The notes below the pieces were generated by a model that made no database searches, had not been told where the DNA came from, and saw only the letters and a list, made by a program, of their open reading frames with translations. From positions 1-55,840 of IMG/VR virus record IMGVR_UViG_3300006868_000023: a DNA stretch of 55,840 bases; one strand, given 5' to 3'. Of this stretch, positions 3,956 to 55,454 are shown piece by piece. Position 1 is the first letter of the stretch. Every line of letters begins with the position of its first letter. This DNA comes from a virus. The translations under genes were made by a program, and so were the position numbers.

Positions 3956-4864
3956 ATGAGCATACAAGAAAATATATTAAGGTATAACAGGCAACCTGAA
4001 TTATCACCTTGGTTTCAAGACAAACTTACAGAATTAATTTCTTTCGGAGTCTATCATAACAATATCGCTGAACTCAGCAGATCAATTGTTAGCGAACTTG
4101 CAAAATACAAACTAAAATACAATATTGAAAATGTTGTTATCGGTATCAGCGGTGGTATTGACAGTGCTGTTACTGCCGCACTTTTCAAGAATGCAGGTTG
4201 GACTGTAACAGGCGTATTGATGCCTATACACCAAAACCCGGAAGAAACTGCCAGAGGAAAAGAACTTTGTGAAGCATTAGGTATCAATCATTTAGAAAAA
4301 GATCTCACAGAAATTTTTGATTATGTAAGCAATAATATTTACAACTTTGGAGAAGACGACAAGATTAGACTAGGTAATATCAGGGCAAGACTGAGAATGA
4401 TTACCCTATATGATTTAGCAAGTGCTAAAGGTGGCCTTGTAGCCAGCACAGATAACTTTAGTGAACTTGCCGCAGGTTTTTGGACATTGCATGGTGACGT
4501 TGGTGACGTCTCACCTATCCAAGCAATGACAAAAAGTTGGGAGATTCCTGCATTAGCAGAATATCTCAATGTACCACAATCAATTGTGGAGGCGGTGCCT
4601 ACAGACGGTTTAGGTATTGCCAATGGTGACGAAGACCAATTTGGTTTCAGTTACTTGGAGTTCGATATTGCACTGTTCACTCTTATGAGAGGCGGTGTTA
4701 ATATGGAAAAACTAAATGAGCAAGATAAAGCGATTGTTCAGGCTGTCGCTGACAGAGTGAGGAGTACTACTTACAAACGAGCAAATCCTTTCAATCTTGT
4801 ACACCCGTTCGATGGTTCACGTTATGAGGACCTAGAACAATTAGATATATATCTTAGGAGTTAA
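3956..4864 (+). CDS. nadE: NH3-dependent NAD+ synthetase
   Basis: A 302-residue N-type ATP pyrophosphatase that amidates nicotinic acid adenine dinucleotide to NAD+. The P-loop SGGIDS is at about residues 65-70, LGNIRARLRM (NaAD/ATP contact) in the middle, and STDNFSELAAGFWTLHGDVGD matches the NadE signature region. Length fits the short, ammonia-using form without a glutaminase domain. It follows guaC after 28 bases and a late-type box. Ammonia dependence links it to nitrogen status, as does the glutamine riboswitch at 37.9 kb. QueC was considered because it shares the fold, but the NadE motifs and the absence of QueC cysteines argue against it. Confidence 0.85.
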   Translation: MSIQENILRYNRQPELSPWFQDKLTELISFGVYHNNIAELSRSIVSELAKYKLKYNIENVVIGISGGIDSAVTAALFKNAGWTVTGVLMPIHQNPEETARGKELCEALGINHLEKDLTEIFDYVSNNIYNFGEDDKIRLGNIRARLRMITLYDLASAKGGLVASTDNFSELAAGFWTLHGDVGDVSPIQAMTKSWEIPALAEYLNVPQSIVEAVPTDGLGIANGDEDQFGFSYLEFDIALFTLMRGGVNMEKLNEQDKAIVQAVADRVRSTTYKRANPFNLVHPFDGSRYEDLEQLDIYLRS

Positions 4865-48496: not shown

Positions 48497-51178
48497 ATGA
48501 GTTACGTAGATGCTTTCTATGATAAGCAAAAAGATCTAATTCGCGTAGTAGAGCGAGTAGATGGAAAGCGACATCTTATAGAGCACAAGCCAGAATACAA
48601 CTTTTATGTCTCAGATCCCAGAGGTTCCCACAGAAGCATATACGGCGAACCAGTTCAAGAAATACGTTGTAAAAATATCAAAGACTTTCGCAAGAATGTT
48701 GCTATCAATAAAACAAATAAAACATACGAAAGTGATATTAAACCACTGAACAAAACTATTGCGAAGCATTATCTAAATGCTGAGCCACCCAAACTGCACA
48801 CAGCCTTTTTTGATATCGAGGTAGACTTTGATCCTGATCGAGGATACAGTTCACCTGAAGATGCTTTCATGGAGATAACATCTGTTGGTGTATACTTGCA
48901 GTGGATGGATGCAATGGTGTGTTTAGCAGTACCACCTAAAACACTTAGTTGGGGTCAGGCACAGAACATTGCTAAAGAGCTACCTGAAGTAATACTGTTT
49001 AAGACCGAAAAAGAATTACTGCAAACATTCCTCAACCTTATTGAAGATGCAGACATACTAAGCGGATGGAACAGTGAGGGTTATGATATTCCTTACACCA
49101 TCAATCGTATTATCAAAGTGTTGGGCAAAAGTGAATTACGCAAACTATGTTTGTTTGATCAAATGCCAAGACAAAGAACCTATGAAGCATTTGGCAGTGA
49201 ACGTGAAACATATGACTTGATTGGTCGTGTACACTTAGACTATATGCAACTGTATCGCAAATACAACTATGAGGAACGACACAGTTACAGACTTGACTAC
49301 ATTGGTGAGATGGAAGTAGGTGAGAAGAAGGTAGCCTATGAAGGTAGTTTAGATAGACTTTACAATCATGACTTCCTCAAGTTCTTAGAATACAATATTC
49401 AAGACGTATTGTTGTTAGATAAGTTAGACAAGAAACTACAGTTTATTGATCTTGCTAACACTATTGCACATGATAATACTGTATTACTTCCAACTACAAT
49501 GGGTGCTGTAGCAACCACGGAACAAGCAATTATTAACGAAGCACACAGACGTGATTACATTGTGCCAGACAGAGACCGCAGTGAGAAAAAGAACACACAG
49601 GCGGCTGGTGCCTATGTTGCGTTCCCCAAGAAAGGTTATCATGAATGGGTAGGCAGTATGGACTTGAACAGTCTGTATCCTAGTGTGTTTAGAGCATTAA
49701 ACATGGCTCCTGAAACCATTGTTGGGCAACTACGCCAAGACTATACAGAAGAAGAAATTAACAATAAGATGACATTGGAGAAGAAGTCATTTGCAGATTC
49801 TTGGTTAGGTAAGTTTGGTAGCAATGAATATGAAATGGTTATGTCTAAAGACGTTAACCACACAATGCATTTAGATATGGAAGATGGCTCAACTGTAGAA
49901 GTTACAGGTGCCGATGTTTACAACTTAGTTTTTAATAGTGGGCAACCTTGGAATATCAGTGCCAATGGTACAATATTCAAAACAGACTTCCAAGGTATTG
50001 TTCCAGGCTTATTGGAGAGATGGTATGCAGAAAGAAAAGAGTTACAAGCAAACAAAAAGAAAGCAACCACAGATGCCGACATTGCATTTTGGGATAAGCG
50101 ACAGTTGGTCAAGAAGATTAATCTTAATAGTTTGTATGGTGCTATTCTCAATCCTGGTTGTAGATTCTTTGACAAGAGAATCGGTCAATCCACAACACTT
50201 ACTGGACGGGCCATTACAAAACACATGGGAGCAGAAACAAACAGAATGCTTACAGGAGTGTACGATCATACTGGCGACACTATAGTATATGGTGATACTG
50301 ACTCAGTGTACTTTACTGCAACTCCAGCATTAAAAGAAGGACAGACATTAGATATGGAGAGTGCAATTAATTTGTATGATCACATATCAGATACTGTGAG
50401 CTCAACATTCCCAAAAATGTTAAAGGAAAGTTTCAACGTACCAACTGACCAAGGTGCTGTTATGCAAGCCGGTAGAGAAGTAGTTGGTAGGTCAGGTTTG
50501 TTTATTACCAAGAAGCGATATGCAATCAAGTGTTTGGACATTGAAGGCTATCAACCAGAAGGTGGTAAACTAAAAATTATGGGCATGGATATCAAGCGAA
50601 GTGATACGCCTGAATTCATACAAGACTTCTTAGAAGAAGTATTAGATGATGCACTAGAAGGCAAAACTGAAAGCGAAGTTATAGCAAAGATCAGAGACTT
50701 CAAGAAGCACTTCCAAGGCCTAGAGCCGTGGTTAAAAGGTATGCCTAAACGTGTAAACAACTTGACAATGTATGGTGAGAAACTTGCCAAACAAAGACGT
50801 GTTGAAGCAAATAATTACAAACTAAAACGTCTCACAGACTTAGCACCTGAGAACACAATGATACCAGGGCATGTAAGAGCAAGTATTAATTGGAATGAAC
50901 TTAAACAGGCTCACGGAGACAACTACAGTATGACTATCATGGACGGACAAAAAGTAATTGTGTGCCGTCTTAAAAATAATCCGATGGGCTATTCCAGCAT
51001 TGCATATCCAACAGATGAATTGCATATTCCAGAATGGTTTAAGGAGTTGCCCTTTGATACTGAAGCAATGGAGCAGGCAGTATTGGATAAAAAGATTAGT
51101 AATGTTTTAGGTGCTATGAATTGGGACTTAAAGCGAATTAACGAGAGTGAGGCCTTACAAGCCTTCTTTGAATTTTAA
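48497..51178 (+). CDS. 43: family B DNA polymerase (T4 gp43-like)
   Basis: An 893-residue replicative polymerase. Exo I FFDIEVDFD (about residues 104-112) gives the 3'-5' exonuclease. Motif A DLNSLYPS (389-396), motif B KKINLNSLYG (539-548) and motif C YGDTDSVYF (598-606) give the polymerase site, with both catalytic aspartates. Length matches T4 gp43 (898). The C-terminus ends in EALQAFFEF, a hydrophobic tail of the type that docks the sliding clamp; the DpdA-like protein ends the same way (NEFFEF). Upstream lies the orphan RNA, possibly a control element. Confidence 0.97.
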   Translation: MSYVDAFYDKQKDLIRVVERVDGKRHLIEHKPEYNFYVSDPRGSHRSIYGEPVQEIRCKNIKDFRKNVAINKTNKTYESDIKPLNKTIAKHYLNAEPPKLHTAFFDIEVDFDPDRGYSSPEDAFMEITSVGVYLQWMDAMVCLAVPPKTLSWGQAQNIAKELPEVILFKTEKELLQTFLNLIEDADILSGWNSEGYDIPYTINRIIKVLGKSELRKLCLFDQMPRQRTYEAFGSERETYDLIGRVHLDYMQLYRKYNYEERHSYRLDYIGEMEVGEKKVAYEGSLDRLYNHDFLKFLEYNIQDVLLLDKLDKKLQFIDLANTIAHDNTVLLPTTMGAVATTEQAIINEAHRRDYIVPDRDRSEKKNTQAAGAYVAFPKKGYHEWVGSMDLNSLYPSVFRALNMAPETIVGQLRQDYTEEEINNKMTLEKKSFADSWLGKFGSNEYEMVMSKDVNHTMHLDMEDGSTVEVTGADVYNLVFNSGQPWNISANGTIFKTDFQGIVPGLLERWYAERKELQANKKKATTDADIAFWDKRQLVKKINLNSLYGAILNPGCRFFDKRIGQSTTLTGRAITKHMGAETNRMLTGVYDHTGDTIVYGDTDSVYFTATPALKEGQTLDMESAINLYDHISDTVSSTFPKMLKESFNVPTDQGAVMQAGREVVGRSGLFITKKRYAIKCLDIEGYQPEGGKLKIMGMDIKRSDTPEFIQDFLEEVLDDALEGKTESEVIAKIRDFKKHFQGLEPWLKGMPKRVNNLTMYGEKLAKQRRVEANNYKLKRLTDLAPENTMIPGHVRASINWNELKQAHGDNYSMTIMDGQKVIVCRLKNNPMGYSSIAYPTDELHIPEWFKELPFDTEAMEQAVLDKKISNVLGAMNWDLKRINESEALQAFFEF

Positions 51179-51202: not shown

Positions 51203-51230
51203 TTGACTTTTCTAAATAAGAGTGTACAAT
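51203..51230 (+). promoter_or_regulatory. sigma70-type promoter with +1 at an ATG
   Basis: TTGACT (51203-51208), 16-bp spacer, TACAAT (51225-51230), 6 bases, ATG at 51237. Confidence 0.7.
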
Positions 51231-51236
51231 AGATTT

Positions 51237-51485
51237 ATGCCAGAACATAAACAAATTAGACAAGCATTCTACGAAGCATTAACTGATACAGGTATTGCGG
51301 CTGTAGTTAACATACCACTTAACTTTGTGTTAGTATATTTGTGTATTGACGTATGGCAAGTAGGCACAATGTGGACTAGTGTTATAATGACAACTATATT
51401 CACAACGTATGCTATCGCACGTAAGACTGTAGTTAGATTATATTTTGAACGTGAAGCAATTAAAAAACAAGCCAAAGTAACTTAA
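51237..51485 (+). CDS. small membrane protein, 82 aa, probably leaderless
   Basis: The start is the ATG at 51237; the longer frame opens through the promoter -10. Two membrane spans (about residues 18-40 and 46-64) with a basic C-terminus (EREAIKKQAK). It sits between gene 43 and the gp45-like clamp, and its 3' end carries AAGGAG for the clamp. Function unknown. Confidence 0.6.
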   Translation: MPEHKQIRQAFYEALTDTGIAAVVNIPLNFVLVYLCIDVWQVGTMWTSVIMTTIFTTYAIARKTVVRLYFEREAIKKQAKVT

Positions 51486-51494
51486 GGAGATAAT

Positions 51495-52250
51495 ATGGCG
51501 GATAATTATATTAAGGACACATTGAAAGATGTGTTAAGACATACCCACAACTTGGGTATTTTTGAAATGGTAAAGATCAAAGGCACTGTTGAGTCTACTG
51601 ATATTGAAACCGTGGACGCAGAAAAAACTGTGATCTTGAAAGGTAACACAATTAATCCTGTGCCTGACTTTGTTGATGCAACAGTTGGACTAAGTAGAAT
51701 GGGTGTGTTAGATGGATACTTAAAGTTTCCAGGCTTTGATGATGAGAACGCAACCGTAAAAGTTGTTACACAAAATCGCAATGACGAAGACGTTCCTGTT
51801 GAAGTAGAGTTTGTTAGTGCTGAAGGTACTGATGCACACTATAGATTTATGTTAGCAGATGTTGTTAATCAGCAACTAAAAGACATTAAGTTTAAGGGTG
51901 CAGAGTTTGATGTAAACATTGTGCCTAGTGCTAAGATGCTAAAAGATCTCAGTTACTTTAACAGTGTAATTGGTGCATTCGAAACCAACTTCTCTCCACG
52001 TACAGAAGACAACAAACTGTATTTCTATATTGGTGATGAGGGCAGTGACAGAACTAAGGTACTTGTTGCTGAAGGTGTTGATGGCGAAATCAAACACGAC
52101 TTCCGTTGGAACTTAGACATTGTGCTAAAGATTTTACGTTTAGGTGACAACTCAAATGTAGTAATAAGTTTTAATGGACAAGGACTATGCCAAATTGTTG
52201 TTGACAGTGGCTTAGGTGTCTACACATATCTATTACCAGCAAGGAGTTAA
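51495..52250 (+). CDS. 45: sliding clamp (T4 gp45-like)
   Basis: A 251-residue protein with two-domain clamp pattern: an N-terminal DTLKDVLRHTHNLGIFEM helix and strands, and a C-terminal half ending GQGLCQIVVDSGLGVYTYLLPA, which matches the terminal strands of gp45/PCNA-type clamps. Neighbour genes 43 and loader 44 in the window support the call. It tethers the polymerase to DNA and, in T4, also activates late transcription from TATAAATA promoters. Confidence 0.75.
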   Translation: MADNYIKDTLKDVLRHTHNLGIFEMVKIKGTVESTDIETVDAEKTVILKGNTINPVPDFVDATVGLSRMGVLDGYLKFPGFDDENATVKVVTQNRNDEDVPVEVEFVSAEGTDAHYRFMLADVVNQQLKDIKFKGAEFDVNIVPSAKMLKDLSYFNSVIGAFETNFSPRTEDNKLYFYIGDEGSDRTKVLVAEGVDGEIKHDFRWNLDIVLKILRLGDNSNVVISFNGQGLCQIVVDSGLGVYTYLLPARS

Positions 52251-52253
52251 TGA

Positions 52254-53813
52254 ATGGATTTAGGCAAAAGACAACGAGACTATGCAGTATATCTCCCTGC
52301 AATTAGTAGTTTCTATGTAAAACAAGTTGACAAGATTATCAACAAAGTTCCTGCAGAAAGTAGAGTGCCTGCAGGATTTGAACATGGTAACGAAGGTCTC
52401 GATTTCCTAAAGTCTAAAGATACATATTATCATTACCCTTGGGGTCTTTACTCTGCAGGTCATGCTCACTTAGACATTAATAAAAGTCATGCTGATGAGC
52501 CAATGATCCAAGACAGAGATAGAAACACTACAATTATTTTAGGTGACAGTGGCGGTTTCCAAATTGCTACTGGCGTACTTAAACTAGACTGGGCTAACGC
52601 AAAGGATCCTAATGATCCTGCTCGAACTGCAATCTGCGAAAAAATACTGCGTTGGCTCGAGCATACAGCAGATTGGAGTATGACACTAGATATTCCGGCA
52701 TTTGCCGCAGTCGAGCCACTTAGCAGTAAAACTGGGCTTACATCTTTTGACGATACATTAGATATCAGTCTACTAAACTTGGACTACTTTGTTCGTAATC
52801 GAGTGCCAGGTGCAACCAAGTTCCTTAATGTAATTAGTGGTACAGATGAGGCCACAAGTAAAACTTGGTATGAAGCAGTTAAGAGCTTCAGTAAGCCACA
52901 GTTTACTGCAGAAGCATACGGTGATGCAAACAGAGCATTGGAAGGCTATGCCTTTGCTGGTATTAATATGAAAGACCTCAGTTGCGTCTTGAATAGGCTT
53001 TTAGATTTGCGTGAAGATGGATTACTAGAAGGCAAGGATTGGATACACTTCCTTGGTACTGGTAAACTACAATGGGCCTGTTTCCTAACCAGCATTCAAA
53101 GAATGTTACGCCAACATGATAACCCAAACATTACTTTGAGTTTCGATGCGGCATCACCGTTTGTGAATACAGCATATGGTCAAACCTATGCACACAATTT
53201 CTTTGAGCCAGGTAAGTTTGGTTACTTTATGGATCGTGCATTTGATCAACAACAATTTAAGGGCAGTGAGTTGCCAGCACCATTTGGACATTCACCTGTA
53301 ATGAGCAGACTCACAATGGGCGACCTGTGTCCATTAGAAGCAGGTGATACAGACAAAAACGGCAAGGCTAAACTTGCAGAAGGACAACCTATCTTAGACA
53401 AAGAAGGTAAGCCTAAACTGGATGCTGACGGTAATCCTATGGTAGCAGAACGTGATAGCACTAGTTGGGACACACAAAGTTATTTGTATTACATGGCTCA
53501 CAGTGTGTTTAATCACATTGATGCAGTACAAGAGGCAAACAGACTAGCAGACGTAGAACGTACTAGGGAACCTGTGCATTATTCACAGTGGAGAAAGCCT
53601 AGCAAGAAAAGTAGTAAGGCACAAGAAGTATCTCCATACGTACCAGTAAACTTGTTTTACTTTGATAGTTTTGCAAAGGAAGTATTAGATCCTGCTTGTG
53701 AAAACCCAAGAGGACTAATTAAGGACTACAAAGAAATGTTGGATTCATTCAGTGTAGGTGGTGAAGTAGAAGATACTAAAGAGGAAGTATTAAATGAGTT
53801 TTTTGAATTTTAA
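52254..53813 (+). CDS. DpdA/TGT-like base transglycosylase, 519 aa
   Basis: GDSGGFQIA (Asp 98) is the TGT general-acid motif. SMTLDIPA (Asp 146), GYAFAGIN, HFLGTGK (267-270) and SFDAASPF (Asp 298, nucleophile candidate) complete the TIM-barrel layout of DpdA proteins, which swap guanine in DNA for 7-deazaguanine bases. The tRNA TGT zinc motif is not seen. It is in the replication block (gp43, gp45, then this, then MazG) and ends NEFFEF, a clamp-binding-like tail also seen in gp43. No preQ0 synthesis genes (folE, queD/E/C) occur in the window. Confidence 0.7.
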   Translation: MDLGKRQRDYAVYLPAISSFYVKQVDKIINKVPAESRVPAGFEHGNEGLDFLKSKDTYYHYPWGLYSAGHAHLDINKSHADEPMIQDRDRNTTIILGDSGGFQIATGVLKLDWANAKDPNDPARTAICEKILRWLEHTADWSMTLDIPAFAAVEPLSSKTGLTSFDDTLDISLLNLDYFVRNRVPGATKFLNVISGTDEATSKTWYEAVKSFSKPQFTAEAYGDANRALEGYAFAGINMKDLSCVLNRLLDLREDGLLEGKDWIHFLGTGKLQWACFLTSIQRMLRQHDNPNITLSFDAASPFVNTAYGQTYAHNFFEPGKFGYFMDRAFDQQQFKGSELPAPFGHSPVMSRLTMGDLCPLEAGDTDKNGKAKLAEGQPILDKEGKPKLDADGNPMVAERDSTSWDTQSYLYYMAHSVFNHIDAVQEANRLADVERTREPVHYSQWRKPSKKSSKAQEVSPYVPVNLFYFDSFAKEVLDPACENPRGLIKDYKEMLDSFSVGGEVEDTKEEVLNEFFEF

Positions 53814-54162
53814 GATTAAGAATCCCTTTAAGAAAAACGTAAAGGTCAACGCCCTAAAAGGCGATGTTACAATGTTTGATAATGCTATTAGACAATGGCA
53901 TCACGATCGTAATTTAATTAATGGTAGCACTGATAAAGATCAAGTGCTAAAGTTAATGCAAGAACTAGGCGAACTCAGTGATAGTTGCTGTAAAGGCAAA
54001 GACATGAGAGACGACTTAGGCGACATGATGGTAGTTATGTTAAACATTATGGAACGCAACGGCTACTCATTAGAAGGCTGTCTTGCACAGGCATATGGCG
54101 ATATTAAAGATCGCAAAGGTAAAATGGTAGACGGTATTTTTGTTAAGGAAGGCGATCTCTAA
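53794..54162 (+). CDS. mazG: MazG-like nucleotide pyrophosphohydrolase, 122 aa
   Basis: LMQELGELSDSCC near residues 50-62 and RDDLGDMMVVMLNIMERNGYS near 70-90 are the E-x-E-L and D-x-x-D-x-x-D-like metal motifs of MazG-type all-alpha NTP pyrophosphatases. It may hydrolyse dNTPs or ppGpp-type signals, as proposed for marine phage MazG. The N-terminal 25 residues are basic. It overlaps the DpdA-like gene by 20 bases and the next gene by one. Confidence 0.8.
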   Translation: MSFLNFKIKNPFKKNVKVNALKGDVTMFDNAIRQWHHDRNLINGSTDKDQVLKLMQELGELSDSCCKGKDMRDDLGDMMVVMLNIMERNGYSLEGCLAQAYGDIKDRKGKMVDGIFVKEGDL

Positions 54163-54838: not shown

Positions 54839-55062
54839 GACAGAACGAAAAACCACATCAAACATTAGCATGGTTTGCTACAGCAATGCTAGTATGTGCG
54901 GCATGTTTAGCAAGTTTTGTACCTGCTATGGAGTTGCATCATTATTTTTTTATAACTGCTAACAGTATTTGGACTGCTGTTGGTGTACTTTGGAAAGAAC
55001 AAACAGTTTGGGTATTAAATGCTAGTTTAACTTTTGTTTATATTTTAGGACTTTTATTATGA
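54835..55062 (+). CDS. small membrane protein, 75 aa
   Basis: Two spans (about 12-32 and 56-75) with aromatic residues between. Overlaps both neighbours by four bases (ATGA). It may form a complex with the PsiE-like protein that follows. Confidence 0.6.
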   Translation: MRQNEKPHQTLAWFATAMLVCAACLASFVPAMELHHYFFITANSIWTAVGVLWKEQTVWVLNASLTFVYILGLLL

Positions 55063-55454
55063 TGAAAAGCAAATTACATTGGACCACAGTGTTAACAGAA
55101 CGTGCAATTATTGCATTGATTGGCGTTTGTACTGTTTTTGCCATTGGCGATTACTTATTTGGTATGTGGTTAGCAAGATCTGTTGTGTTAGCAGATTTAT
55201 TTATGTTGTTTATTTTTGCAGAGGTTGTTGCAATGATAGGAGCATTTTATAACACAGAACGTATTCCTGTAACATTACCAATAATTATTGCAATTACTGC
55301 CTTGTGTAGATTAATAGTATTGCACAGTAAAGATATGGAACCCATTGGGCTATTTGCAGAAGCAGGTGCTATTTTAATTTTAGCAGGTGCGGCTTACTTA
55401 ATGAGTCTAAAAGATAAACTAAGTTTGGAAAAGTTAAAGGTTGACAAAGACTAA
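55059..55454 (+). CDS. PsiE-like phosphate-starvation membrane protein, 131 aa
   Basis: Three to four membrane spans with LFMLFIFAEVVAMIGAFYNTERIPVTLPIIIAITALCRLIVLHSKD, here split by a basic loop, resemble PsiE (phosphate-starvation-inducible). It is predicted to sit in the inner membrane. The window also has phoH. Function of PsiE in phages is unclear. A sigma70 promoter overlaps its end. Confidence 0.65.
   Translation: MMKSKLHWTTVLTERAIIALIGVCTVFAIGDYLFGMWLARSVVLADLFMLFIFAEVVAMIGAFYNTERIPVTLPIIIAITALCRLIVLHSKDMEPIGLFAEAGAILILAGAAYLMSLKDKLSLEKLKVDKD

Follow-up and report, generated by a model that had tools for sequence, protein, structure and literature searches.

The closest described system is DpdA of phages 9g and CAjan (phrog_887), an enzyme of the tRNA-guanine transglycosylase (TGT) type with a DSG(G/A)F motif, found in phages that also encode FolE, QueD, QueE and QueC. 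In CAjan, both modification and resistance disappear when dpdA is lost (PMC6884629). It is not settled how enzymes of the DpdA type locate phage DNA or at what point they act. The sliding clamp is not mentioned in the paper that characterised phage DpdA, and no literature linking DpdA with a clamp was found in the paper library that we searched. In phage T4, gp43, gp55 and gp33 bind the clamp gp45 through similar, interchangeable hydrophobic-acidic C-termini (PMC2988020). Similarly, T4 alpha-glucosyltransferase co-purifies with gp45, and clamp binding is not the main driver of its modification level (PMC13216743).

Here we analyzed a putative DNA-guanine transglycosylase gene in a 55,840-nt stretch of viral DNA (the window), which is the entire IMG/VR record IMGVR_UViG_3300006868_000023; the contig ends 2 kb downstream of the gene. 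The initial annotation had placed a TGT-fold enzyme directly after a gp45 clamp and before MazG. The relevant features are as follows:

48497..51178, + strand: family B DNA polymerase, gp43-like, 893 aa (Pfam PF00136, E 2e-37), ending in LQAFFEF
51155..51175, + strand: clamp-binding-like tail LQAFFEF of the polymerase, conserved in relatives
51222..51485, + strand: small ORF between polymerase and clamp, 87 aa, DUF7220-like, just below the Pfam cut-off
51495..52250, + strand: sliding clamp of PCNA/gp45 fold, 251 aa (predicted fold)
52254..53813, + strand: TGT-fold putative DNA-guanine transglycosylase gene, ATG start, open ORF, 519 aa
52545..52562, + strand: DSGGFQ motif, residues 98-103, with Asp98 as the equivalent of the TGT general-acid/base Asp
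53139..53147, + strand: SFD motif with Asp298, the putative nucleophile (assigned by motif order)
53790..53810, + strand: clamp-binding-like tail LNEFFEF of the TGT-fold protein, residues 513-519 (from the alignment of tails and statistics)
53794..54162, + strand: MazG-like pyrophosphatase (PHROG E 8e-36), overlapping the 3' end of the TGT-fold gene by 20 nt

The fold proposed for the 519-aa product held up in an AlphaFold2 model (pLDDT 88.7, pTM 0.88). Among the VIA matches listed, 50/50 were tRNA-guanine transglycosylases (Z 18-19), the best solved match being 2ash (Z 19.4, 309 residues aligned, 4.6 Å), and the top Foldseek match was QTRT2, which is non-catalytic. At the level of this predicted model, the TGT (beta/alpha)8 fold is confirmed. 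No match was obtained for the protein in the Pfam sequence search, PF01702 included, at E up to 1, or in PHROGs, PADLOC and PDB sequence searches and a PDB profile search. The motifs named in the initial annotation were both recovered, with Asp298 sitting in SFDAASP. In an alignment of 33 relatives with identity down to ~30%, D98, S99, G100, G101 and Q103 were unchanged, as were S296 and D298; the family-wide pattern is DSGG(F/Y)Q, Asp146, HxLG and Asp298. Because both aspartates are invariant, 52254-53813 is, as far as an alignment can tell, a real and conserved gene. Asp298 occurs in the motif order expected of the nucleophile, with no residue-level superposition behind the assignment. The zinc motif CxCxxC of TGT, present in E. 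coli Tgt, was absent from 33/33 family members.

In viral contigs, 136 relatives of the protein were found, of which 80 were kept. Among named phages, homologues occur in Pseudomonas jumbo phages of the PA5oct/Paride group (11 records, 50% identity), in Sinorhizobium phage Phosso (31%) and in Vibrio phage 2.275.O (34% over part of the length). Comparison with DpdA gave no phrog_887 match and an hhalign probability of 0.3%, with no homology detectable beyond DSG(G/A)F. By sequence, then, the window protein is not a DpdA and belongs to a separate TGT-fold family beside DpdA and DpdA2, one that probably works like DpdA, its activity being inferred. Homologues without the clamp tail were also seen on bacterial chromosomes (L124-L153; Shinella, Sphingobium, Sulfitobacter, Azospirillum and others), often adjoining an unknown gene of 500-880 aa; an OGG-like glycosylase lies near one of them (L133) and a C5-cytosine methyltransferase near another (L132). 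PADLOC models matched no known defence system among these homologues, leaving no PADLOC support for reading them as one, and they may represent uncharacterised DNA-modification islands.

The genomic context claimed for the gene was likewise upheld. The product of 51495-52250 matches by sequence only a PHROG of unknown function, and its PA5oct orthologue is annotated merely as a structural protein. Its AF2 model (pLDDT 90) aligned with PCNA 8dr4 (Z 17.9, 227 residues, 3.1 Å; Foldseek E 2e-11), and on this structural prediction the gene preceding the TGT-fold gene encodes a sliding clamp. The order polymerase, clamp, TGT-fold gene is kept in nearly all relatives. In PA5oct, the polymerase gene lies in two ORFs, split around a Hef-like homing endonuclease (L082:5605-10831), and L042 and L066 likewise have it as two ORFs. 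Another PA5oct protein, of 288 aa, contains SSLFDID internally (L109:10869-11735, PA5oct 250869-251735), and its homologues lie near the TGT-fold gene in L046, L122, L071 and L073. Further along the window, positions 55059-55454 encode a PsiE (phosphate-starvation-inducible E) family protein (Pfam E 3e-19).

The C-terminal FFEF that the initial annotation had reported as common to the enzyme and gp43 is indeed present in both proteins, and among + strand genes of the window only these two end in this motif. The last 17 residues of the TGT-fold protein are predicted to be disordered (pLDDT <50). We could rule out that the tail is a peculiarity of the window's protein: tails diverge in sequence across the family alignment and still show, at about the same position, a hydrophobic-Phe-acidic motif, and [FLMI][FW][DEGN] was present in the tails of 29/33 relatives against 9.2 expected from shuffled tails. 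A stricter motif, hydrophobic-x-x-[FLM]-F-[DEGNST], was found in 24/38 clamp-linked homologues (3.8 expected by shuffling) as opposed to 2/34 homologues without a clamp gene, mostly from bacterial chromosomes (1.6 expected; Fisher 3e-7 between the two groups). On contigs binned as bacterial, six homologues adjoin a phage-type clamp and polymerase, and all of those with readable C-termini (5/5) carry an LF-type tail. The F/L variant was the same in the TGT-fold protein and in the polymerase of its own phage in 18/19 cases, FF going with FF and LF with LF; in Vibrio phage 2.275.O the two proteins end in DLFDW and DLFGW. Exceptions were observed, with MWG in L065, L067 and L071 and no tail motif in L073 and L075, and kinship among sequences inflates both the tail and the covariation counts.

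A parallel was found in canonical phage DpdAs. JenP2 has a DpdA identical to that of 9g; it ends in QDLFDE, and the genes after it encode a processivity factor and a family B polymerase. LF or LFS also closes the sequence of seven other DpdAs from named phages, Leu314 and Phe315 being the only invariant tail residues among the named-phage enzymes. Across 81 DpdA loci in viral contigs, representing 60 distinct 12-residue tails, an exact LF end, mostly QELF, was present in 50/60 distinct tails compared with 2/467 background genes, and the rest had close variants, QDLF and QELY among them, near the end. When the DpdAs were clustered at 70% identity, the loose motif was retained in 21/21 DpdAs and the exact LF end in 17/21. 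A clamp gene lay within 2.5 kb after DpdA in 69/74 loci with enough flank. No such tail was seen in the Mycobacterium Rosebush-type DpdA or in the DpdA2 of KVP40. Published consensus motifs are QL(S/D)LF for C-terminal beta-clamp binding and Qxx[I/L]xxFF for PCNA (PMC9690074). The clamp-binding-like motif of the window family matches its clamp type in the same sense, in the absence of binding data. By these consensus motifs, the window family and the DpdAs, whose sequences show no detectable relation apart from a few motifs, each bear a tail that fits their own type of clamp.

We also looked for the source of the modified base. The initial annotation was right that the window holds no preQ0 genes, but the reason is that the contig ends only 2 kb further on; FolE and QueE lie just past that end. 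A second contig, IMGVR_UViG_3300025653_000072 (L002), is 99.975% identical to the window's last 19,930 nt and continues for 22.5 kb. From L002:12378 on, it encodes a glycosyltransferase, GalE, a purine phosphoribosyltransferase, FolE, a 177-aa ORF, QueE and a 2OG-Fe(II) oxygenase, which puts FolE (E 3e-37) and QueE (phrog_2076, E 4e-49) 5.6-6.8 kb past the TGT-fold gene. The glycosyltransferase is GT-B-like (23/25 family members match Pfam Glycos_transf_1, best E 3e-5; best solved match WlaC, E 0.002), GalE was called by TIGR01179 above cut-off and the phosphoribosyltransferase by a PDB profile (E 1e-19). This gene order is kept in many relatives. In PA5oct, a glycosyltransferase homologue starts right on the stop codon of the TGT-fold gene, with QueE 2.8 kb further on. 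In Vibrio phage 2.275.O the genes after the homologue encode QueF, a YhhQ-type transporter for vitamin uptake, QueC and FolE.

Among 44 tested records, FolE and QueE were each found in 32, QueD in 5 (including PA5oct, Phosso and Vibrio 2.275.O) and a clear QueC in Vibrio 2.275.O only. Since most of these records are fragmentary, a gene missing from them says little, but PA5oct is complete and no QueC was found in its genome, which leaves the preQ0 route uncertain. Several candidates for the missing steps were discarded or remain weak. Window positions 3956-4864, considered as QueC, encode an NAD synthetase NadE (TIGR00552 above cut-off) carried by the phage, and a QueC-like match in contig G002 was likewise NadE; a divergent QueC-like gene was seen in contig G003 only (TIGR00364 E 6e-8, below cut-off). 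The 177-aa ORF between FolE and QueE, considered as a QueD substitute, matched no family or solved structure. The reliance on host precursors suggested by the initial annotation is thus unneeded for FolE and QueE, both phage-encoded, although QueD or QueC may still come from the host. From the distribution of the four genes we infer that the base is likely 7-carboxy-7-deazaguanine, or preQ0 with the help of host QueC, possibly further elaborated. The conserved downstream cluster suggests that the 7-deazaguanine bears a sugar or some other elaboration, or that released guanine is recycled.

Overall, the best reading of the locus is a clamp-tethered, replication-coupled insertion of 7-deazaguanine into the phage's own DNA, to which we assign a probability of about 75%. 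To break the glycosidic bond of guanines in phage DNA, the enzyme would form a covalent intermediate at Asp298 and use Asp98 as acid/base, and it would replace guanine by a 7-deazaguanine made via phage FolE and QueE, with QueD or QueC possibly supplied from elsewhere in the genome or by the host. The PIP-like motif of the disordered tail would dock on the neighbouring PCNA/gp45-type clamp, as the polymerase tail does, behind the polymerase, and docking there would couple modification to replication. The modified DNA would then resist host restriction, a protection inferred by analogy with CAjan. The clamp-recruited DNA 7-deazaguanine transglycosylase proposed earlier is therefore supported, because the fold, the conserved catalytic motifs, the syntenic place beside clamp and polymerase, FolE/QueE linkage and PIP-like tail agree; biochemical activity, DNA as substrate, clamp binding and timing are inferences. 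The lack of a sequence-level DpdA or TGT match, the missing CxCxxC, the failure to find QueC in PA5oct, the tail exceptions, the inflation of the tail counts by kinship and the minor part that clamp binding plays in the T4 alpha-glucosyltransferase modification level (PMC13216743) speak against it.

Other explanations can account for part of these observations. The protein could be a DNA 7-deazaguanine transglycosylase whose tail does not bind the clamp, acting on bulk phage DNA after replication. A hydrophobic-acidic tail might have another partner and some relatives lack it altogether, but we regard this option as unlikely, given that the motif goes with the presence of a clamp gene and varies as the motif of the polymerase does, and that a beta-clamp motif is independently present in canonical DpdAs. 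The substrate could also be RNA, with a phage TGT putting a queuosine precursor in phage or host tRNA and so helping translation: tRNA-guanine transglycosylases are the nearest match to the fold, and FolE and QueE would feed tRNA queuosine equally well. Against this stand the fixed place in the polymerase-clamp block, the clamp-like tail, the missing TGT zinc motif and the lack of any annotated QueA or QueG in the neighbourhoods read, and we consider a role on tRNA quite improbable. It is harder still to credit a catalytically retired TGT-fold subunit that serves the replisome as a scaffold or by binding DNA. Such a subunit would be comparable to the non-catalytic QTRT2 that tops the Foldseek matches, yet both putative catalytic aspartates have stayed invariant over 33 diverged members and the gene is linked to FolE and QueE.

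Clamp tethering, if true, would account for a modification that is both dense and selective for newly made phage DNA, which in our preferred reading, replication-coupled insertion, probably hides fresh phage DNA from bacterial defences, the resistance being inferred. It would also name a likely modification enzyme for jumbo phages PA5oct and Paride, where the protein is annotated as hypothetical, and it points to a possible sugar-decorated deazaguanine. More tentatively, and with considerable doubt, we suggest that the DNA-guanine transglycosylases of phages are, as a class, clients of the sliding clamp and so coupled to replication, with a PIP-like tail for PCNA/gp45 and QELF for beta, and that the base of the window family is elaborated, perhaps with sugar, by the conserved glycosyltransferase-GalE pair. 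The clamp-tethering prediction is directly testable in E. coli phages 9g and CAjan.

Compared with known systems, the window family shares with bacterial and archaeal tRNA-guanine transglycosylases the fold (Z ~19) and DSGGFQ, and differs by the lack of CxCxxC, its extra length, the tail motif and the absence of a Pfam match. T4 alpha-glucosyltransferase, which places glucose on hydroxymethylcytosine, differs in chemistry and is, to our knowledge, unrelated to TGT; the likeness lies in a DNA-modifying enzyme bound to a phage sliding clamp (PMC13216743). With DpdA2 of Vibrio phages nt-1 and KVP40 (phrog_10773), the motifs DSGGxQ, HxLGxG and SxD align in order; this match spans 175 columns (E 0.01) and rests on one DpdA2 sequence. 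On so weak a match DpdA2 is set apart as another sequence family only tentatively. KVP40.0122, identified as DpdA2 by position and motifs only, has no clamp-like tail, and a scan for DpdA2 relatives returned two near-identical loci only. Finally, phage DpdA differs from the window protein in size (317 aa vs 519 aa) and in having a beta-type instead of a PCNA-type clamp and motif. The two resemble each other in adjoining a clamp and a family B polymerase, in a C-terminal clamp-binding-like tail and in linkage to 7-deazaguanine synthesis, FolE and QueE lying less than 8 kb away both in contig L002 and in relatives, as for 9g-type DpdA.
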